From Chitinophaga pinensis (lineage in GTDB: Bacteria; Pseudomonadota; Gammaproteobacteria; Burkholderiales; SG8-41), in NCBI GenBank assembly GCA_943329075.2, contig CALQCM020000002.1, positions 1 to 64,000 on the forward strand: 64,000 nucleotides of DNA, written 5' to 3'. Within the stretch, counting starts at the first letter, position 1, and every line of letters begins with the position of its first letter. The notes under the pieces are model-generated. The model was given only the letters and a program-made list of their open reading frames with translations, was not told the DNA's origin and did no database searches. Below, piece after piece: positions 40,849 to 61,952 of the stretch. A program made the position numbers and the translations under genes.

Positions 40849-42282
40849 CTAAGCCGCGTGTTGTGCGCGCTGCGGAAATTCGACGCTGACGCGTGTGCCG
40901 TGGCCTGAGGTGCCCGGTTCGAGTGCCACGGTCGCGCCGTGGCCAAAGGCGATTTCGCGCACGATGGCGAGGCCGAGGCCGCAGCCGTCGGCGCCGTTGC
41001 CGAGCAGGCGGTGAAAACGTTCGAATACGCGTTCGCGTTCCGCCGGCGGAATGCCGGGGCCGTTGTCTTCAACGCTGAGCACGCAGCTGTTGGCGTGTGG
41101 CGTGACGGCGACCGTGATCTGGCCGCCGGGGGGCGTGTAACGGATCGCATTGTCGAGCAGGTTGCCGAGCAGTTCCTTGAGCAGGATCGGGTCGCCGCCG
41201 ATCGGCGCCGCTGCGGCGACGCCGTCGAAGCCGAGATCGATGTTGCGGTCGATGGCGCGCGGCACCCATTCGGTGGTCGTGTGGCGCGCCAGTTCGTTCA
41301 GATCGAGCGGCTGCGGCGCATACAGGCGGTTGGCGCCCGGCTCGGCGCGTGCCAGTGATAGCAGTTGATTGACCAGATGTGTGGTGCGCGCGGTGGCGGT
41401 GTCGATCTGGCGCAGGCTTTTGCGTACTTCTTCCTGATCGTCCTGACGCAGCGCGAGTTCGGTCTGTGTGCGCAGTCCGGCCAGGGGCGTACGCAGCTGG
41501 TGCGCGGCATCGGCAATGAAACGCTGTTGCGCCGCCAGCGCGTCTGCCAGGCGCGACAACAGTTCGTTCATGGCGCCAACCAGCGCGCGCACTTCGCCGG
41601 GCGCGTTCTGCACCGGCAGCGGGCTCATGTCGCGGTGCGAGCGGCTCGATATCTCCGACTGCAAATCGATCAGCGGGCGCAGGCCGCGCGCGACGCCGTA
41701 CCAGATCAACAGGCCGATCAGTCCGACCAGCAGCAGCTCCGGCAGCAGCATGCCGAACAGAATTTCTCTGGCCAGCGTGCGCCGCTTGTTGAGCGTTTCA
41801 GCGACGACGATCAGCAGATGGTCCTGCTCCGGTGGCAGGCCGGCCACCGGGATCGACAGTGCGGTGGCGCGGATCGGATTGTCGAGAAAGACGTCATCGT
41901 AATAGACGGGCTTGCCGGAAGAGGTGCCGGCTTTCGGCAGCGGCAGGTTGTGATAGCCGGTGATGAAACGCCCCTGGCTGTCGTTGACCATGTAATAGAT
42001 GTTGTCGTGTTTGTCGGATTCCAGCATGTCGAGCGCGGCACGCGGCAGGTCGACGCGCAACTGGCCGTTGATCACATGTACCTGGCGGCTGATGTCCAGC
42101 GCCGAATCGTAGAGCGAATAATCGTAGGCCAGCGTCGCGTAATTGAACGCGTAGTAATACGAAATCACCGAGCTGATCAGCGTCACCAGCACGACCGGCG
42201 TCAGCAGCCGCACCAGCAATTGTTCGCGCAGCGAGGCGTTTTCGGGCGCGCGCACCCGCCGCAGGCCGGCGCCGATTTTCAT
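40849..42282 (-). CDS. Sensor histidine kinase, TctE/QseC type
   Basis: 477 residues. An N-terminal membrane helix (about 24-44), a periplasmic sensor of about 130 residues in the style of the two-component sensor kinase N-terminal domain (ALDISRQVHVINGQLRVDLP), a second helix near 178-196, HAMP, then HisKA with H261 (DAAHQLRTPLAGL) and HATPase (LLDNAIRYTPPGG, DNGPGIP, GLGLAIV). TctE-type kinases classically sense tricarboxylates, but this gene is divergent from a metal-efflux operon, so its signal may be a metal. It overlaps the response regulator gene by four bases. Confidence 0.9.
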   Translation of the reverse strand: MKIGAGLRRVRAPENASLREQLLVRLLTPVVLVTLISSVISYYYAFNYATLAYDYSLYDSALDISRQVHVINGQLRVDLPRAALDMLESDKHDNIYYMVNDSQGRFITGYHNLPLPKAGTSSGKPVYYDDVFLDNPIRATALSIPVAGLPPEQDHLLIVVAETLNKRRTLAREILFGMLLPELLLVGLIGLLIWYGVARGLRPLIDLQSEISSRSHRDMSPLPVQNAPGEVRALVGAMNELLSRLADALAAQQRFIADAAHQLRTPLAGLRTQTELALRQDDQEEVRKSLRQIDTATARTTHLVNQLLSLARAEPGANRLYAPQPLDLNELARHTTTEWVPRAIDRNIDLGFDGVAAAAPIGGDPILLKELLGNLLDNAIRYTPPGGQITVAVTPHANSCVLSVEDNGPGIPPAERERVFERFHRLLGNGADGCGLGLAIVREIAFGHGATVALEPGTSGHGTRVSVEFPQRAQHAA

Positions 42283-42947
42283 GGTCGTTTTTCGAGCAGG
42301 TAGCCGAGGCCGCGTATGGTGCGGATGACAACACCGGCCGCTTCGAGTTTTTTGCGCAGGCGATGCACGTAGACCTCGATCGCGTTGGCGCCGACTTCCT
42401 CGTCCTGGCCGTACAGCTGGTCGGTCAGCTGTTCCTTGTTGACGACACGGCCGCTGCGCAGCATCAACACCTCCAGCACGCCGAGTTCGCGCGCCGAGAG
42501 ATCGATCGGCACGCCGTCGAGCGTGGCGCGGTGGCCGGCCTGATCGAGGGCAAGCGGCCCGTGGGTCAGGATGGAACTGCCGCCGGCCTGGCCGCGGCGT
42601 ATCAGCGCGCGCACCCGCGCCTCCAGCTCAGGTAATTCGAACGGTTTGGTCAGATAGTCGTCGGCACCGAGATCCAATCCCTTGACGCGCTCGGCGACGG
42701 CGTCGCGCGCGGTGAGGATGAGCACGGGGGCGGTGCCGCCGCGACGACGCAAACGACGCAAAACCTCGAAGCCGTCGATCCGCGGCAGCCCCAGATCGAG
42801 TATCACCAGGTCATAGGTCTGCACAGCGAGGATATGGTCGGCTTCCTCGCCGTCATGGGCGACATCGACGGCAAAATCGTTGCGGCGCAGCGATTTGAGC
42901 AGCCCGTCGGACAGAACCGGATCATCTTCTACGATCAGTATTCGCAT
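42279..42947 (-). CDS. OmpR-family response regulator, TctD/QseB type
   Basis: 222 residues; the ATG at 42947 aligns with the family start MRILIVEDDPVLSDG, though the frame is open 53 codons further upstream. Receiver domain with phosphoacceptor D51 (LVILDLGLP), then a winged-helix DNA-binding domain (about 125-222) with LSARELGVLEVLMLRSG and VYVHRLRKKLEAAG. Its gene precedes and overlaps the kinase gene. It is divergent from czcC; direct repeats of the kind such regulators bind lie in the shared gap. Confidence 0.93.
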   Translation of the reverse strand: MRILIVEDDPVLSDGLLKSLRRNDFAVDVAHDGEEADHILAVQTYDLVILDLGLPRIDGFEVLRRLRRRGGTAPVLILTARDAVAERVKGLDLGADDYLTKPFELPELEARVRALIRRGQAGGSSILTHGPLALDQAGHRATLDGVPIDLSARELGVLEVLMLRSGRVVNKEQLTDQLYGQDEEVGANAIEVYVHRLRKKLEAAGVVIRTIRGLGYLLEKRP

Positions 42948-43125
42948 CGGCTTCCGGATAGGAGTAAAGGCGGCAATCGAATAAAATGAACAGTTTACCC
43001 TGCTGGCAAAACGGCCGTTACATGGTAGATTGCGCGTCTGCCCGATAACGGGTTTTTTTGCGGCCACGGCGCTGCATTGCGGCGCGTTGGAGCGGGTATT
43101 GAACAATCGAAAAATATTTTTGTTT

Positions 43126-43218: not shown

Positions 43219-44538
43219 ATGACATTGAGCAGCGCACGCAGTTTTGCATTTGCTTTCCTCCTCGGAGGCTTGAGTGTCGCGGCGGCCGGTGCAGAACCGG
43301 CGGCGGACCAGGCCCCATTAAGCTCCGCCCTGGAGCGACTCACGTTGCGCCAGGCGGAGATTTTTTTTGCCGCGCGCAATCGTGAAGTGCAACTGGGGCG
43401 CCGTCTGGTCGAAGGTGCCGAAGCCGACCGCCTGAGCGCCGGCGCCCGGCCCAATCCCAACCTGTTTGCAAACACCAGCAAGTTCAACTCGCGCCAGGGC
43501 AACTACAGCGGCGATCTGCGCGACAAGCAGATGGACACCGTGTTCGGCGTGCAGCAGTTGTTCGAACGCGGCAACAAACGCGAACTGCGCATGGGGGTGG
43601 CCGACTTCAATATCGATGCCAGCCGCGGCGAATTTGCCGATATCCGGCGGCAGCAAAAGGTCGCCTTGTATTTTGCCTACTATGATCTGGTGGCGGCGCA
43701 GGACCGTTTGCGCATTGCCACCGAGACCGCCGCCTCGTTCCAGAAAACCATCGACGCCGTCGAGCGCCGCCTCAAGGCCGGCGACATTTCTGCGGCCGAC
43801 GTGGCGCGTATCCGCGTCGATGCACTGCGCGCGCAAAATGACGCCCGCACTGCGCAGGCCGACCGCTCCAAGACACAGACGCAGCTGGCCTACGTCATCG
43901 GCGCCGAGCGCGATGCCGCGGTGATCGCTGCGACCGACGGCTGGCCGGCGCTCGGCGCCGAGGCCGGCGCGGCTGAAATCGAAAAGGCGCTCGACAACCG
44001 CGCCGACGTGCTGGCGGCGCGCGCGCGCGTGGCGGCTGCAGAAAAAACCCGTGAGCTGGCGCGAGCGCTGCGCACACGCGACGTCACGGGGTCCGTCCAG
44101 TTCGAACATTTCCCCGGCGATTTCAGCAACAACACGCTCGGCGTCGGCGTCAGCGTGCCGCTTTTCACCAGCTACTACTATGAGGGTGAAATCCGCCGCG
44201 CCGAGGTTGATTTGCAGTCGGCGCGCGACAATCACGATCGCGTGCGCGCGCTGGCGCTGGGCGAAATCGCCGCGCGGCGTGCCGACCTCGACGCGTCGCG
44301 CGAGCGCGTGCAGCGCTTCGAAGGCGCGTTGCTGAAGGAGGCGCAACGCGCCGCCGATGCCGCGGAGTTCGCCTACAGCCGCGGTGCCATCGGCGTAATG
44401 GATCTGCTCGATTCGCGGCGCCAGCTCTATGCGACGCGCCTTGAGGCCTCGGGCAGCCAGGCGGACCACGCCAAGTCGCTGGCCTCGTGGCTGGCGGCGG
44501 TCGCCGCGGCGGACCTGGCCGACGGCGAAAAAAAATAA
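43219..44538 (+). CDS. czcC: Outer-membrane efflux protein, TolC/CzcC family
   Basis: 439 residues, the outer-membrane channel of a heavy-metal RND pump. A signal peptide ends AAGAE near residue 26. The helical tunnel repeats include LFERGNKRELRMGVADFNID and KALDNRADVLAARARVAAAEKTRELA; the second half repeats the first, as in the TolC fold, with the SVPLFTSYYYEGEIRRAE strand-helix. It is the first gene of czcCBA, with 40 bp before the next. It has a promoter region shared with the divergent two-component genes. Confidence 0.9.
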   Translation: MTLSSARSFAFAFLLGGLSVAAAGAEPAADQAPLSSALERLTLRQAEIFFAARNREVQLGRRLVEGAEADRLSAGARPNPNLFANTSKFNSRQGNYSGDLRDKQMDTVFGVQQLFERGNKRELRMGVADFNIDASRGEFADIRRQQKVALYFAYYDLVAAQDRLRIATETAASFQKTIDAVERRLKAGDISAADVARIRVDALRAQNDARTAQADRSKTQTQLAYVIGAERDAAVIAATDGWPALGAEAGAAEIEKALDNRADVLAARARVAAAEKTRELARALRTRDVTGSVQFEHFPGDFSNNTLGVGVSVPLFTSYYYEGEIRRAEVDLQSARDNHDRVRALALGEIAARRADLDASRERVQRFEGALLKEAQRAADAAEFAYSRGAIGVMDLLDSRRQLYATRLEASGSQADHAKSLASWLAAVAAADLADGEKK

Positions 44539-44578: not shown

Positions 44579-45751
44579 ATGTCGTTGATGGAGATACGCG
44601 GATATTCGGTGGTGCGTGCGCCTTGTGCGGCATTTGTGCTGGCGGCTGCCATTGCGTTGCTGGCCGGATGCTCAGAGGCGCCAAAACCCGAAGTGGTGCC
44701 GTCGGCGAAAATCGACGGTGAATCGATTGTTTTTCTGAAGGACAGTCCGCAACTTACATCGCTGGTCATGGACACCGCGGTGGAACAGCCGGCAGGTGCG
44801 ATTCGTTTGAACGGCCGTCTGGCGTGGAACGAAGACCACACTGTGCGCGTTTTTACACCGTTTGCCGGTCGCGTCGCCAGCATTCACGCGCAACCCAGCG
44901 ACAACGTAAAGCAGGGGCAGATGCTGGCCGTGATTGCGTCACCCGATTTCGGGCAGGCACAGGCCGAAACGCGTCGTGCACAGGGCGATTTCGCCCTGGC
45001 CAGGCAGAATCTTGCGCGGGCCAAAGATTTGCATGAGCACGGTGTGGTCGCGGCGAAAGACCTGAATGCGGCCGAGGCCGAATTCGCGCGCACCGAGTCG
45101 GAAATTAAACGGACGGAAGCGCGCCTCAAGTTCTATGGCGGCGGCAGCGAGATCGATCAGACTTACGGGCTGAAAAGCCCGCTGACCGGCGTGGTAGTGG
45201 AGAAAAACATCAATCCCGGGCAGGAGTTGCGCCCAGACCAGATGGTGGCCAATGCGCCGGCATTGTTCGTGATCACCAATCCGTCGTCGTTGTGGGTGTT
45301 GCTCGACGCGGTGGAAAAGGACCTGCCCAATCTGAAGGTCGGCAGCAATTTGAAGATAAAGGTGCCGGCTTATCCGAACGATGAGTTTCAGGCGAAGGTT
45401 GCCGCGATTTCCGATTTCCTCGATCCGGTGACTCGCACCATCAAAGTCCGCGCGGTCATCGACAATACCGCGCGCAAGCTCAAGGGCGAAATGTTTATCA
45501 ACGCAGAGGCCAAATCTTCGCAGGCGTCGGTCATCAAGGTGCCGGCGCGCGCGGTCATGTTCCAGGGCGGCCGTTACTATCTGTTCGTCGAGGACGGCGT
45601 GGGGCGTTTCGTGCGGCGCGAGGTCGTCACCGCAGAAACCGACGATGGCTATGTCAGTATTGCAAGCGGCGTCGCGGCCGGGCAGAGGGTCGTTGCAGAA
45701 GGTGCTTTGCTGCTGCAGCAGATATTGCAGCCGCGCCGCATCGTCAAATAA
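44579..45751 (+). CDS. czcB: Periplasmic adaptor (membrane fusion) protein, CzcB family
   Basis: 390 residues; the ATG at 44579 (alternative 44588) gives a lipobox LLAGC at residue 31, so it is lipidated and anchored in the inner membrane. Order: N-terminal signal, RLAWNEDHTVRVFTPFAGRV lipoyl half-motif, helical hairpin (FGQAQAETRRAQGDFALARQ onward), second lipoyl half (LKSPLTGVVVEKNINPGQEL), beta-barrel and membrane-proximal domain ending LLLQQILQPRRI. It links CzcA to CzcC. The upstream gap of 40 bp suggests operon coupling. Confidence 0.92.
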   Translation: MSLMEIRGYSVVRAPCAAFVLAAAIALLAGCSEAPKPEVVPSAKIDGESIVFLKDSPQLTSLVMDTAVEQPAGAIRLNGRLAWNEDHTVRVFTPFAGRVASIHAQPSDNVKQGQMLAVIASPDFGQAQAETRRAQGDFALARQNLARAKDLHEHGVVAAKDLNAAEAEFARTESEIKRTEARLKFYGGGSEIDQTYGLKSPLTGVVVEKNINPGQELRPDQMVANAPALFVITNPSSLWVLLDAVEKDLPNLKVGSNLKIKVPAYPNDEFQAKVAAISDFLDPVTRTIKVRAVIDNTARKLKGEMFINAEAKSSQASVIKVPARAVMFQGGRYYLFVEDGVGRFVRREVVTAETDDGYVSIASGVAAGQRVVAEGALLLQQILQPRRIVK

Positions 45752-45779: not shown

Positions 45780-48700
45780 ATGATCAACAAACTCGTCGAA
45801 TTTGCGCTTAAACAGCCGTTGTTCGTGCTGCTCGGCACCATCCTGTTCATCGGTGCCGGCGCCATCGCGTTCAAGGCGCTGCCGGTCGAGGCGTTTCCGG
45901 ATGTGACGGACACCCAGGTCACCGTGATCTCGCTGTTTCCCGGCCGCGCCGCCGAGGAGGTCGAGAAACAGGTGACGCTGCCGCTGGAGGTCGCGCTGGC
46001 CGGTCTGCCTAATTCGGTGCGCATGTTTTCGCACACCCAGTTTGGCCTCTCGTTCATCATCATCACCTTCGACGACGGCGCCAACGCCTATTTCGCGCGC
46101 CAGCAGGTGGTCGAGCGGCTGCGCGAAGTCGAACTGCCGGACGGCGTGCAGCCGCAGCTGGCGCCGCATTCGACGCCGATCGGTGAGATCTACCGCTACC
46201 GCGTCAAGTCGGACAACCTCGATTCGCGCGACCTGCGCACGATCCAGGACTGGACGGTCAGCCGGCAGCTGCGACTGATCCCGGGTGTTGCCGACGTTGT
46301 CAGCTTCGGCGGCTTCATCAAGCAGTACGAGGTAAATCCGGACCTCGCCAAGATGAAGTACTACAAGGTCACGCTGCAGCAACTGTTCGGCGCGCTGCAA
46401 AGGGCCAATTCGAATGCGGGCGGCGGTTACGTCGAGCAGGGGCACCAGCAGTTCCTGATCCGCGGCATCGGTCTGTTGAAGTCGGCGGAAGACGTGCTGA
46501 ACGTGGTGGTCGCCGAACGCAACGGCGTGCCGGTGCTGATCAAGGACATCGCCGCGCTCGCCGTCGGTTCGGTGCCGCGCCAGGGTGTGATCGGGCAGGA
46601 CGACGACGACGATATCGTCACCGGCGTCGTGCTCATGCGCAAGGGCGAAAATCCGTCGACGGTGCTGACGGCGGTCAAATTGCGCGTCGAGATGCTCAAC
46701 AAGACGGTGCTGCCCAAGGGCGTCGAGGTGGTGCCGTATTACGACCGCACCTGGCTGATCGGCAAGACGCTGAAGACCGTCTTCACCAATCTCGTCGAGG
46801 GCGCGATGCTGGTCGCGCTGGTGCTGCTGCTGTTCCTCGGCAACGTGCGCGCCGCCGCCATCGTCGCGCTGATCATTCCGCTGTCGCTGCTGGGCACCTT
46901 CCTCGGCCTGACGCTGATCGGCATTCCGGCCAATCTGCTGTCGCTGGGTGCTATGGACTTCGGCATCATTGTCGACGGCGCGGTGATCGTGGTCGAGAAC
47001 GTGTTCCGACGATTATCGGAAAACAAGGAGTTTCACGACGACCAGGTCGACGACCGCGAAGACCGCCGCCGCATGCACGTGATCTGGGACGCCGCCGTCG
47101 AGGTCGGCCGGCCGACCCTGTTCTCGATGCTGATCATCATTGCCGCCCACATCCCGATATTCACGCTGCAGCGCCACGAGGGCCGCATCTTCGCGCCGAT
47201 GGCCTATTCGGTGACCTCGGCGCTGATCGCCTCGCTGATTTTTTCACTGACGCTGGTGCCGCTGCTGTGTTACCTGCTGCTCAACAAAAAGCTGCCGCAC
47301 CATGACAACGCGCTGGTCGAGCGCTGCAAGTCGCTCTACGAGCCGGCGCTGAAGTGGGCGCTGGGGCGGCGCAAACTGGTGGTTCTCGGCGCCACCGGTG
47401 CGCTGGTAGCCAGTCTGGCGGTAGCGCCGCAGCTTGGCACCGAATTCCTGCCTGAACTCAACGAAGGCGCCTTGTGGCTCAACGTGCCGCTGCATGCCAG
47501 CGTCTCGGTGACCGAAGCATCGATTGAAATGGGCCGCATGCAGGATGTATTGAAGAAGATCCCGGAAATCCGCAGCGTCGTATTCAAAGCGGGCCGTCCC
47601 GAGGACGGCACCGATCCAAAGCTGATCAGCATGGCCGAGATTTTGGTCGACCTCAAACCAGAGTCCGAATGGACGCGCCGGCTTAATAAACGCGAGGTCA
47701 TGCTCGATATAGACCGCGAACTATCGAAAATACCCGGCGTGCAGGCGAGTTTTTCGCAGCCGATCCGCGACAACATCCTGGAGAGCATTTCGCAGATCGA
47801 CGGCCAGATTGTGGTCAAGGTGTTTGGCGAAGACCTCGCGGTGCTGCGCGAAACCGCGGGCAAGGTGCTGGCGGCGATTTCGGACGTGCAGGGTGTCTCG
47901 CGCGCGATGATCGACCGCCAGGGTGAACTGCCGCAGACGCTGATTGAAATCGACCGCGCGCAGGCGGCGCGCTACGGACTCAATGTATCGGACATCGAGG
48001 ACGTGATCGAAACGGTGCTCGGCGGCAAGGTCGCGACCAGCGTGTGGGAAGGCGAGAAGCGCTTCGGCATCGTCGCGCGGCTGAAGGAAAATCAGCGCGC
48101 GCTTGATTCGCTGCCGAACATCCTGGTCAGCACGCCCAACGGCGGTTACCTGCCGCTTTCCCAGGTGGCGAAATTCCGCACCATCGGCGGCAGCATGAAC
48201 ATCAGCCGCGAGAACGGCGGCCGCGTGATGGCGATCGGCGTCTTCATCCGCGACCGCGACATGGGCAGCGTGGTCGCCGACATGCAGGCGCGCGTGGCCA
48301 AATCGGTCAAATTGCCCGAGGGCTATTACATGAGCTGGTCTGGCGAATTCGAGAACCAGGAACGTGCAATGGCGCGTCTGGCAGTGGTTGTTCCGCTGTC
48401 GGTGCTGTTGATCTTCATCCTGCTGTTTGACGCGTTCCAATCGTTCAAAAGCGCGCTGCTGATCATTCTCAATATACCGTTCGCGATGATCGGCGGCATC
48501 TTCGCGCTGCTGCTCACCGGCATTCCGCTGTCGGTGTCGGCGGCGATCGGCTTCATCGCGCTGTTCGGACAATCGGTGCTCAACGGCGTGGTGATGGTGA
48601 CCTATTTCAACCAGCTCAAACGGGCAGGCGCCACTGCGGTCGAGGCGGTGATGCGCGGCTCGATGGTGCGCCTGCGCACCGTTCTGATGACGGCCCTGTT

Positions 48701-48896
48701 GGCGATGTTCGGCCTGCTGCCGATGGCCTTGTCGACGAGCATCGGCGCCGAGACGCAGAAGCCGCTGGCGGTGGTCGTCATCGGCGGCCTCATCACCGCG
48801 ACGATCCTGACGCTGATCGTTCTGCCGGTACTCTACGTGATCTTCGAGGAAGGTATTGCCCGCTGGCGCAAGGCCAGCCGTGATGCCGTGACCTAA
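45780..48896 (+). CDS. czcA: Heavy-metal efflux RND transporter, CzcA family
   Basis: 1038 residues with 12 predicted helices and two large periplasmic loops; proton-driven exporter of divalent metal cations across the inner membrane to the CzcBC channel. The fourth-helix motif reads DFGIIVDGAVIVVEN (393-407), as in the Zn/Co/Cd/Ni branch; the Cu/Ag branch (CusA) has a different motif here. Other markers are PVEAFPDVTDTQVTV and EKQVTLPLEVALAG. 28 bp separate it from czcB. Exact metal specificity cannot be read from sequence. Confidence 0.95.
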   Translation: MINKLVEFALKQPLFVLLGTILFIGAGAIAFKALPVEAFPDVTDTQVTVISLFPGRAAEEVEKQVTLPLEVALAGLPNSVRMFSHTQFGLSFIIITFDDGANAYFARQQVVERLREVELPDGVQPQLAPHSTPIGEIYRYRVKSDNLDSRDLRTIQDWTVSRQLRLIPGVADVVSFGGFIKQYEVNPDLAKMKYYKVTLQQLFGALQRANSNAGGGYVEQGHQQFLIRGIGLLKSAEDVLNVVVAERNGVPVLIKDIAALAVGSVPRQGVIGQDDDDDIVTGVVLMRKGENPSTVLTAVKLRVEMLNKTVLPKGVEVVPYYDRTWLIGKTLKTVFTNLVEGAMLVALVLLLFLGNVRAAAIVALIIPLSLLGTFLGLTLIGIPANLLSLGAMDFGIIVDGAVIVVENVFRRLSENKEFHDDQVDDREDRRRMHVIWDAAVEVGRPTLFSMLIIIAAHIPIFTLQRHEGRIFAPMAYSVTSALIASLIFSLTLVPLLCYLLLNKKLPHHDNALVERCKSLYEPALKWALGRRKLVVLGATGALVASLAVAPQLGTEFLPELNEGALWLNVPLHASVSVTEASIEMGRMQDVLKKIPEIRSVVFKAGRPEDGTDPKLISMAEILVDLKPESEWTRRLNKREVMLDIDRELSKIPGVQASFSQPIRDNILESISQIDGQIVVKVFGEDLAVLRETAGKVLAAISDVQGVSRAMIDRQGELPQTLIEIDRAQAARYGLNVSDIEDVIETVLGGKVATSVWEGEKRFGIVARLKENQRALDSLPNILVSTPNGGYLPLSQVAKFRTIGGSMNISRENGGRVMAIGVFIRDRDMGSVVADMQARVAKSVKLPEGYYMSWSGEFENQERAMARLAVVVPLSVLLIFILLFDAFQSFKSALLIILNIPFAMIGGIFALLLTGIPLSVSAAIGFIALFGQSVLNGVVMVTYFNQLKRAGATAVEAVMRGSMVRLRTVLMTALLAMFGLLPMALSTSIGAETQKPLAVVVIGGLITATILTLIVLPVLYVIFEEGIARWRKASRDAVT

Positions 48897-48907
48897 ACGC
48901 GTCACCC

Positions 48908-48924
48908 AGTAAGAATTGCGTAAG
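48908..48924 (+). promoter_or_regulatory. Second GTAAG direct repeat, downstream of czcA
   Basis: AGTAAGAATTGCGTAAG again has two GTAAG copies 11 bp apart, like the site before czcC. It starts 11 bp after the czcA stop and 280 bp before the next confident gene, so it could control that gene or be a leftover from a lost czc-like promoter. Confidence 0.45.
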
Positions 48925-49040
48925 GTCGGCATCGTGCCCTGGCGCCGCGGTTTCCGGCAGTTTGTGCCGGCCGTATTTTGCGGCGTCGCGCTGCCCCGTT
49001 ACTCCTCATTCAGTATTGCGGACGGGCGGCGTAAAACGCG

Positions 49041-49157
49041 GTGATCGTCGGCGGTATCGTCGCGGCAACCCTGTTCACCCTGTTGCTGTTGCCGCTGCTG
49101 TTCCCGGTATTCTCCGAGCAGCGGCGGATCGTCGCGGCCGAGCAGCCGCTGGTATAG
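49041..49157 (+). pseudogene. Tail remnant of an RND transporter gene
   Basis: A short frame closed just upstream by TAA reads NAVIVGGIVAATLFTLLLLP and on to a stop after about 38 residues from the GTG. It lines up with the last helix of the CzcA just upstream (LAVVVIGGLITATILTLIVL). It is diverged from that gene's own 3' end, so it is more likely the remains of a second, deleted efflux pump than a fresh duplication. The surrounding region 48897-49204 otherwise holds only the direct repeat at 48908 and no other gene. Confidence 0.6.
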
Positions 49158-49204
49158 CGTTTGGGCAGTCGATCAATCTGCAAATTCAGACGACGGGAGG
49201 GCAC

Positions 49205-49402
49205 ATGACAGTCAAATTTGGCAGGGATCAGCCGCAGCTGACGGCGGAGGATCTCGAAATCGTCAACCGCATTAAGATGATGGCCGAAGAGATGCATGAG
49301 TCGATCGATATGGCTCCAGTGTCGCCGGCGCGCGAGACGGCCAAAGTCAAGTTGCAGGAATGTGTGATGTGGGCGGTCAAAGCGATCGGGGAGCACCGCT
49401 AA
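49205..49402 (+). CDS. Small protein resembling the Acb2/Tad1 hairpin domain
   Basis: 65 residues; the ATG at 49205 has GGGAGGG upstream, so a longer frame back to 48962 is rejected. The sequence is two probable helices: a first from TAEDLEIVNRIKMMAEEMHE, and a second containing PARETAKVKLQECVMWAVKA with the arginine-glutamate and MWA residues. The latter pattern is the one I associate with the Acb2/Tad1 hairpin domain of phage proteins that bind cyclic nucleotides and block CBASS immunity. The match is from memory and needs a profile search. It lies beyond the czc operon and ahead of a peptidase gene. Confidence 0.7.
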   Translation: MTVKFGRDQPQLTAEDLEIVNRIKMMAEEMHESIDMAPVSPARETAKVKLQECVMWAVKAIGEHR

Positions 49403-49534: not shown

Positions 49535-50467
49535 ATGACAGGCCAGCAGCGCAAGACATTGATCAAGGCCATGGCAGGCGGTGTGCTGGTCCTGCTCGGA
49601 TTGCCATGGTTGAGCCACGCCGGTGAAATTGCCGGCAGCAAATATCCGGTCGCCCAAGCCAGGACGGACGTGCGCAAGGCCGCACAGGCCGGATTGACCG
49701 CTGCCGGACTGCCCAACCTGAAGTCTTCCATTGCGCTGGTTGTCGATCTGGTTGACGGCCACGCCATCTTCGGCAAAAACGTCGAACACGTGTCGCCTAT
49801 CGCCTCGATCACCAAACTGATGACGGCGATGGTGGCGCTGGATGCCGATCTGCCGCTCGAAGAAACCATCGTCATCGATCACGCCGACGTCGACCAGCTC
49901 AAACACACCGGATCGCGCCTCAACGTGGGCATCGGCCTGTCGCGCGCCGACATGCTGCGCCTCGCGCTGATGTCGTCGGAAAATCGCGCGGCCGCATCGC
50001 TGAGCCGCGCTTATCCGGGCGGACGCGAAGCCTTCATCGCGGCGATGAACCGCAAAGCCATCGAACTGGGCATGTACAACTCGCGTTTCGTTGATCCGAC
50101 CGGGCTGTCGAGCGAGAACGTGTCGACCGCGCAGGACCTCGCCAAAATGGTGAAGACGGCCTACGAATATCCGCTGATCCGCGAGTTCACGACGACATCG
50201 TCGCATGAAGTTTCAACGACGCGCGGTCGCAGTCTGCAGTTCCGCAATTCGAACGGGCTGGTGAAAAGCCCCGACTGGGACATCGGCCTCTCCAAAACCG
50301 GTTACATCAGCGAGGCCGGCCGCTGCCTCGTCATGCAGGCGAAAATCGCTGCGCGTCCGGTGGTCATCGTGTTGCTCGATTCATTGGGCAAGAACACGCG
50401 CATGGGTGACGCCAACCGCATCAAGAAGTGGCTGGAGAGCCGCGTCGGGCGCAAGCCCGTCGGCTGA
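49535..50467 (+). CDS. pbpG: D-alanyl-D-alanine endopeptidase (PBP7-like)
   Basis: 310 residues from the ATG at 49535, which has AGGAGAG upstream; an in-frame start at 49499 is less likely. A penicillin-binding serine peptidase that cuts D-Ala-mDAP cross-links in murein, acting in the periplasm. Signal peptide about 1-29 (ending SHAG). The catalytic motifs are SITK (S91-K94), SEN (S148-N150) and KTG (K254-G256). The length, near 310, suits PBP7/8 (E. coli PbpG is about 313) and not the larger DacA group. Confidence 0.92.
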   Translation: MTGQQRKTLIKAMAGGVLVLLGLPWLSHAGEIAGSKYPVAQARTDVRKAAQAGLTAAGLPNLKSSIALVVDLVDGHAIFGKNVEHVSPIASITKLMTAMVALDADLPLEETIVIDHADVDQLKHTGSRLNVGIGLSRADMLRLALMSSENRAAASLSRAYPGGREAFIAAMNRKAIELGMYNSRFVDPTGLSSENVSTAQDLAKMVKTAYEYPLIREFTTTSSHEVSTTRGRSLQFRNSNGLVKSPDWDIGLSKTGYISEAGRCLVMQAKIAARPVVIVLLDSLGKNTRMGDANRIKKWLESRVGRKPVG

Positions 50468-60707: not shown

Positions 60708-61952
60708 TTACTTCGCAAACCGAAATAGATAGCCCTTCGCTGATTTTCGTTTTCCTGAGATGGCACATGAAATTAGCGCTCGGCTTATGCCGAGCGCTTC
60801 TGCGGCAGCCTTTGCGCTTTGGTAAAAATGTTCGGTGCCGTCTGGCGAAACGGCTACAACTGCTTTCGAGCGGGCTTTGGCGACAAGTGCAAACTTGTAT
60901 TCGGTTGGTGGTGGGGCATCCTTTTTATAGCTGAACCACCAATTGGCTGCGGAAATGCGCTCTCCCGACGCAACCATTGCGGAAGCCCCTTTGTATATTC
61001 CTAATTCTTTGTCGGCGACAGTGCAGTTACGAAACTCACGAGATTCGCTGGTTTTAAGGTTGATCGCGTAGACTTTTCGATCGCGTTTCGCGCGTGCGGC
61101 GGCATGGCTGTGCAATTCTGGCATTGGGCGATTGTCGCCTTCAAATTGGAACCACCAGCCGCCAGCGGAATGACTCTTGCCATGCGCGACGGCCCAGACC
61201 TCAGACTGATTGACGAGAAGGGTAATTGCTGCCTCATCGGCAGTTGGAAATTTCCGGGTTTCCATGGTCTTATAGTTAATAGCTATTAATGGCCGCGCGT
61301 TAATGCCTCGCAACTTGGCGAATCTTAATTTTTCGCCCCACAATTTTGGTGGTTTTGCCTTGTTGTCATCAGCTAGGCGAAACCACCAGTCACGAGCTGC
61401 GGTGATTTCGCCGCGAATAACAGCCATTGGTGTATCGGTGCTAGCAAATCTAAGTTGTCGAGCGGCTTCGGAGCCGCCGGCGAAATTTCTTGATTCGCCG
61501 GTTGGTAGGTATATGCCAATGATTGGGATGTTGTTGTCTGCCACCAAATCGCCGCCAGGCGAAAGATTGTAGGTGTACCTCGATCTGTGGCCGCCAGCAG
61601 CTTTGATTGCGATGATTTCCGCGGCGTTTAGCTCATTCTTATCGTCAGCGAAAGCTAGGATGTAGGAGTCGAAAGATTTCCAGCCGTATTTCTTTAGAGC
61701 GCGTCCGAACGATTGTTTCTCGGAATAAGTAGTTCCTGTAAGCCAGCGTTTTCGTGCTTCTTGAACAGTGACCCCGATATAGCATTTTCGTAGTTCGCGA
61801 TGGACATGCATATAAAGCACGCTTGTTGCGGCAAGCTTCTGAGTTTCCATGATTTCAAGCGCAACAAACTCAGTTCCGTTGGCGACGCAAATTAGTTGTG
61901 TGTTGAATTTGGCGTTCCGCGGTGATAGGTGAGCAAAGTTTTGTGCGGACAT
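60708..61952 (-). CDS. GIY-YIG nuclease-like protein with four C-terminal repeats
   Basis: 414 residues (an internal ATG at 61850 is a possible later start). Residues about 46-135 match the GIY-YIG fold: LYMHVHRELRKCYIGVT with YIG at 58-60, R67/R69 as candidate catalytic arginine, E112 (LNAAEIIAI) and the asparagine region YNLSPGGD. The rest contains four repeats of roughly 50 residues (143-194, 221-271, 293-343, 363-413), each starting with a beta strand like IIGIYLPTGE or AVVAVSPDGTE and ending GYLFRFAK or WWFQFEG. They resemble the NUMOD1-type DNA-binding modules of homing nucleases. It stands alone in AT-richer sequence. Confidence 0.85.
   Translation of the reverse strand: MSAQNFAHLSPRNAKFNTQLICVANGTEFVALEIMETQKLAATSVLYMHVHRELRKCYIGVTVQEARKRWLTGTTYSEKQSFGRALKKYGWKSFDSYILAFADDKNELNAAEIIAIKAAGGHRSRYTYNLSPGGDLVADNNIPIIGIYLPTGESRNFAGGSEAARQLRFASTDTPMAVIRGEITAARDWWFRLADDNKAKPPKLWGEKLRFAKLRGINARPLIAINYKTMETRKFPTADEAAITLLVNQSEVWAVAHGKSHSAGGWWFQFEGDNRPMPELHSHAAARAKRDRKVYAINLKTSESREFRNCTVADKELGIYKGASAMVASGERISAANWWFSYKKDAPPPTEYKFALVAKARSKAVVAVSPDGTEHFYQSAKAAAEALGISRALISCAISGKRKSAKGYLFRFAK

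Follow-up and report, generated by a model that had tools for sequence, protein, structure and literature searches.

A short gene of a betaproteobacterial genus codes for a protein that truly belongs to the Acb2/Tad1 hairpin family, although it has diverged, and the gene is now chromosomal in this genus. Phages are known to use Acb2 and Tad1 as weapons against the immune signalling of bacteria. We suggest, giving it roughly even chances, that a phage-type hairpin was recruited here to a chromosomal pump locus, where it is an accessory gene, and that its ligand or partner has changed.

Family membership and predicted fold

The gene is a 65-aa ORF with an ATG start, found exactly at 49205-49402 on the plus strand of the window (the whole 64-kb stretch of DNA that was analysed), and its product is MTVKFGRDQPQLTAEDLEIVNRIKMMAEEMHESIDMAPVSPARETAKVKLQECVMWAVKAIGEHR. 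This is where the first-pass annotation had placed it, and the motif quoted there is present. The ribosome site of its own that had also been proposed is seen as a GGGAGG directly 5' of the gene (49195-49200), a putative signal read from the sequence.

PF24729, the Pfam model of the Acb2/Tad1 hairpin, matches the window protein with an E-value of 7.3e-10 and 39.3 bits (gathering score 27 bits) over the profile positions 4-56 of 58, and it matches all 7 copies when those of six relatives are included (best E-value 3.5e-16). The earlier family call, made from the sequence alone, was therefore right. No model from PADLOC or NCBIfam matches the protein, and a protein search of phage and plasmid records returned weak and distant matches only. 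When a profile of the seven copies was compared with PDB sequences, T4 Vs.4 and "Acb2 homolog 43" (PDB 9ptq) came first and Tad1 fourth, all of them weak (E-values of 0.05-0.6). In the tree, the genus sequences cluster together (93/98), except for one spurious fragment with a branch length of 8.6.

Two kinds of candidates were discarded as chance matches: a second one in the window's genome (contig 15, E-value 0.43), lying inside a receptor-like protein, and recurrent weak PF24729 matches in ORFs of about 200-290 aa from many relatives, which are below the cut-off and reach the same level in control genomes. Another apparently chromosomal PF24729 set was found in genus g14 of the same order (L010-L013, match at 1501-1686), with the sequence MQK..GHKPLNAAQIGDMNMVKHLGK..., conserved in 4 genomes and without the MW motif. 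This set (e.g. L011) is a different branch, still more divergent than the window's clade.

AlphaFold2 (monomer, seven-copy alignment) predicts two helices for the 65-aa protein, at residues 14-36 and 41-63, and no strands, with a mean pLDDT of 85 that rises to about 95 in the helices. The top Foldseek row against PDB was T4 Vs.4, an Acb2 (prob 0.87, with a weak E-value of 0.8), and most of the top rows against the BFVD viral models are named "Acb2/Tad1 hairpin domain-containing protein" (prob about 1.00), in agreement with the two-helix hairpin that had been read from the letters. VIA-align gave a Z of 7.2 for Vs.4 and 6.7 for Acb2, but a Z of about 7 was also reached by unrelated hairpins. 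Since the two-helix hairpin is a common shape and unrelated rows score alike, the sequence profile carries the weight of the family call.

Besides the fold, the protein shares with Acb2 (T4 Vs.4, PDB 7uq2; PDB 8h2j) a short N-terminal segment before the hairpin and the C-terminal AKxKLxE..MW motif. However, the identity is only about 18-25%, the N-terminal aromatic residue is absent from the window protein, its gene is chromosomal, and no SMODS-type CBASS synthase was seen in the genus. With Tad1 it shares the C-terminal helical part with the KLxExxMW motif, whereas the N-terminal beta domain of Tad1, which helps to form the gcADPR pockets (PMC12043709), is missing from the window protein with its 65 aa and no strands in the model.

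Genomic neighborhood and distribution

In the window, the gene is surrounded by the following features:

40849-43106, minus strand: divergent two-component pair (sensor kinase 40849-42282, response regulator 42279-43106)
43219-44538, plus strand: outer membrane efflux protein of the RND1 operon (PF02321)
about 44579-45751, plus strand: periplasmic adaptor of the RND1 operon (HlyD_D23, RND_mfp)
45780-48896, plus strand: RND1, heavy-metal efflux RND transporter of the CusA/CzcA family (TIGR00914, 1062.8 bits against a cut-off of 701)
48897-49040, plus strand: junction segment from the RND1 stop to the RND2 relic (only short, chance-level blastn matches to the loci of relatives)
49041-49157, plus strand: what is left of the lost RND2 pump gene, its final 38 codons with the stop (37 of 38 residues as in the intact G012 copy)
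49195-49201, plus strand: putative Shine-Dalgarno-like GGGAGGG before the ATG, read from the sequence
49205-49402, plus strand: 65-aa Acb2/Tad1 hairpin-family protein, helices at residues 14-36 and 41-63 (Pfam, AlphaFold2, orthologues in 6 other genomes)
about 49535-50467, plus strand: D-alanyl-D-alanine carboxypeptidase (Peptidase_S11, PF00768)

Further neighbors in the window are a histidine-specific methyltransferase, transporters, a class II tRNA synthetase and UvrA. No prophage is visible around the hairpin gene, which has housekeeping and transport genes as neighbors and a syntenic position within the genus. Both the neighboring genes and the synteny agree with the chromosomal, non-prophage place between an efflux operon and a cell-wall peptidase described by the first-pass annotation. 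At 60708-61952 (minus strand), a 414-aa protein begins in a GIY-YIG-like manner and carries several repeats of the NUMOD/I-HmuI type toward its C-terminus. The group I intron endonuclease model stays below its cut-off there (38.4 against 56), and no group I intron was found by Rfam within the 64-kb window, the gene being free-standing and homing-endonuclease-like.

Orthologues of the hairpin, with 45-75% identity, occur in 6 of the 14 other genus genomes, whereas 59 genomes from other genera of the family have none, the genus genomes being fragmented drafts, at least one of them metagenome-assembled, and that of the window being 86% complete. In all six relatives, the hairpin gene is directly 3' of RND2 on the same strand, and an adaptor gene precedes RND2. 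Permease and adaptor are ordinary members of CusA/CzcA-type RND efflux loci (TIGR00914 and RND_mfp); the RND2 proteins of the six have about 1030-1036 aa and are at least 81% identical to the G012 copy, and RND1 and RND2 are 43% identical to each other. The carboxypeptidase gene is found further 3' on the same contig in five of the six, as in the window. We know of no such hairpin protein as a component of a CusA/CzcA-type RND efflux locus.

Seven genus genomes have RND2 orthologues (at least 80% identical), and six of these carry the hairpin gene. The seventh, G007, has RND2 in the same place and then the carboxypeptidase gene, without the hairpin gene between them, while the window's genome is the only one with the hairpin and without RND2, of which the tail was retained. 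From all these genomes we conclude that hairpin and RND2 locus are linked in this genus, although neither strictly needs the other. The RND2 tree, being without resolution at its base, fits either a loss or an original absence of the hairpin in G007.

The G007 order also fits a single arrival of a phage hairpin gene between the RND2 and carboxypeptidase genes, where it was then inherited with the locus, its function being unrelated to the pump (e.g. against superinfecting phages), and so does a family that is mostly phage and prophage. Nevertheless, the gene adjoins the pump in every species carrying it and is under purifying selection, which leaves such a passenger conceivable but rather doubtful. 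A role with the pump would be somewhat more likely than that of a mere passenger. Counting against the pump-locus reading, no evidence of a promoter or of co-transcription was found, and gene order by itself does not establish a shared function of the two.

In the window's genome, the segment 48897-49157 is a deletion scar, the second RND pump gene having been lost save its last 38 codons. The retained tail differs from that of G012 by 23 nucleotides and one amino acid (dN 0.012, dS 1.68); RND2 was therefore probably under selection until recently, and its loss looks recent. For this reason, the hairpin without pump in the window says little about a pump-independent function, and the idea that selection had kept the hairpin after the pump was gone was dropped in view of the low dN/dS of the pump tail itself. 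The first-pass annotation had no means of seeing that the gene belongs to a genus-conserved pump locus whose pump was lost here. In G003 (L022, 1960-10923), a single contig carries both pumps, and RND1 (in two frames, with 83-86% identity to that of the window) is followed by RND2 and the hairpin gene, an arrangement that may be the state before the window's deletion.

Selection on the hairpin gene

Between the window and G012, the hairpin gene has a dN of 0.127 and a dS of 0.935 (dN/dS 0.14), with 13, 2 and 25 substitutions at the three codon positions. The other valid pairs have dN/dS values of 0.04-0.58, the deeper ones being near saturation; pairs with G013 were left out, their rows being shifted by one codon. 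Judging from these substitutions, the gene is under purifying selection. It is very short and the adjoining pump gene is a relic in the window's genome, which might point to a remnant without function or to a two-helix ORF that arose by chance. Yet the significant profile matches in all seven orthologues, the 18 invariant columns of 65 among them, the bias by codon position and the low dN/dS make this highly improbable.

Residues replaced and kept in the chromosomal clade

Virus contigs yielded 23 relatives (genus profile) and 80 loci (profile of mainly phage sequences), the two sets partly overlapping; the phage-type rows were aligned with one model, and their counts are unweighted for relatedness. 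The N-terminal aromatic residue (Tyr/His) is present in 93 of 98 phage-type rows against 1 of 6 aligned rows of the clade (one His), where Gln, Pro or His is found; in the window copy, Gln 9 aligns with Tyr 8 of Vs.4. In Acb2, this N-terminal Tyr stacks on the ligand nucleotide. At the start of helix 2, Glu (101/108 in the phage-type rows) is found in none of the seven clade copies, all with Ala, and Ser/Ala (105/109) likewise in none, all with Asp/Glu. Thr (105/109, best judged on the 23-relative set with 20/22, the Thr-to-Met stretch being part of the search pattern for the 80 loci) is kept in one copy, the other six having Val, Ile or Asp, and Arg (106/108) is kept in four of seven.

Other columns are shared. 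The core Trp is invariant on both sides (109/109 and 7/7), the Lys/Arg of helix 1 (107/107) is kept as Lys in six of the seven, and the helix-2 core K(L/I)E-E-x-VMW-x-x-K is kept in the clade, with W, M, V, the second E and the last K each in 7/7. The chromosomal clade is thus like other PF24729 members in profile match, two-helix arrangement and conserved helix-2 end, but the Tyr/His, Arg-Glu-x-Ser and Thr columns that most phage members have are largely replaced. Among the copies in other Proteobacteria genomes of the phylum sample, several seem to be carried by prophages, and these follow the phage residue pattern.

Because near-invariant phage positions are replaced, the original ligand site was probably retuned or lost. 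On the other hand, the kept hydrophobic core and the conserved helix-2 end KL-E/Q-E-x-VMW-x-x-K suggest that the two-helix fold has probably been retained, and the protein may still oligomerise.

Immune and signalling systems in the genus

SMODS-type CD-NTases were found in none of the 15 genus genomes (the window's and 14 others, all incomplete drafts), while the same search was positive in control genomes. DncV-like NTases gave no match in a search that had no positive control. A ThsB-type TIR is present among the genus drafts only in G007, which lacks the hairpin gene. The results for CBASS and Thoeris, the two systems that the first-pass annotation had named, do not speak for a nucleotide sponge.

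A working sponge kept by the bacterium would sequester cyclic di- or trinucleotides (e.g. c-di-GMP or CBASS signals), damping its own signalling or remaining as a leftover of phage counter-defence. The family membership and the retained Lys of helix 1 are consistent with it, and the window's genome has 13 GGDEF domains, so that c-di-GMP is probably available. However, with the N-terminal aromatic, Glu, Ser and Thr columns replaced, no SMODS-type CD-NTase in the genus drafts and the only ThsB-type TIR in a genome without the hairpin, we consider this activity unlikely. In the "domesticated nucleotide sponge" proposed earlier, the word domesticated fits, but the sequence gives no support to the sponge. 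We think it more likely that the ligand has changed, or that the partner is a protein, than that the sponge activity was retained.

Proposed role at the pump locus

The hairpin probably descends from a phage-borne protein, since most of the family members found are from phages and prophages and the pump cluster exists without the hairpin in one genome. Its gene is now the last one of an adaptor-RND2-hairpin cluster for heavy-metal efflux of the CusA/CzcA type. In the mechanism that we hold most likely, it would encode a small cytosolic helical oligomer that is co-expressed with the pump. This oligomer would bind either a small ligand other than the original one or a partner protein, and it would serve the pump locus. 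Within the literature collection that was searched, no report of host-domesticated Acb2/Tad1 proteins was found. In a more specific version, a phage immune-signal sponge was domesticated to act on the pump as a cytosolic sensor or regulator, its site being remodelled to take a ligand of the host (a nucleotide second messenger or a metabolite). We judge this version quite unlikely; if true, it would link pump output to signalling.

A chromosomal branch that is conserved in a genus, linked to a pump and changed at the signature residues of the phage members would represent a phage sponge fold in host use. The chromosomal clade would also lend itself to comparisons that ask what residues a sponge requires, and the domain name "Acb2/Tad1 hairpin", taken alone, would invite a wrong functional annotation for such proteins.
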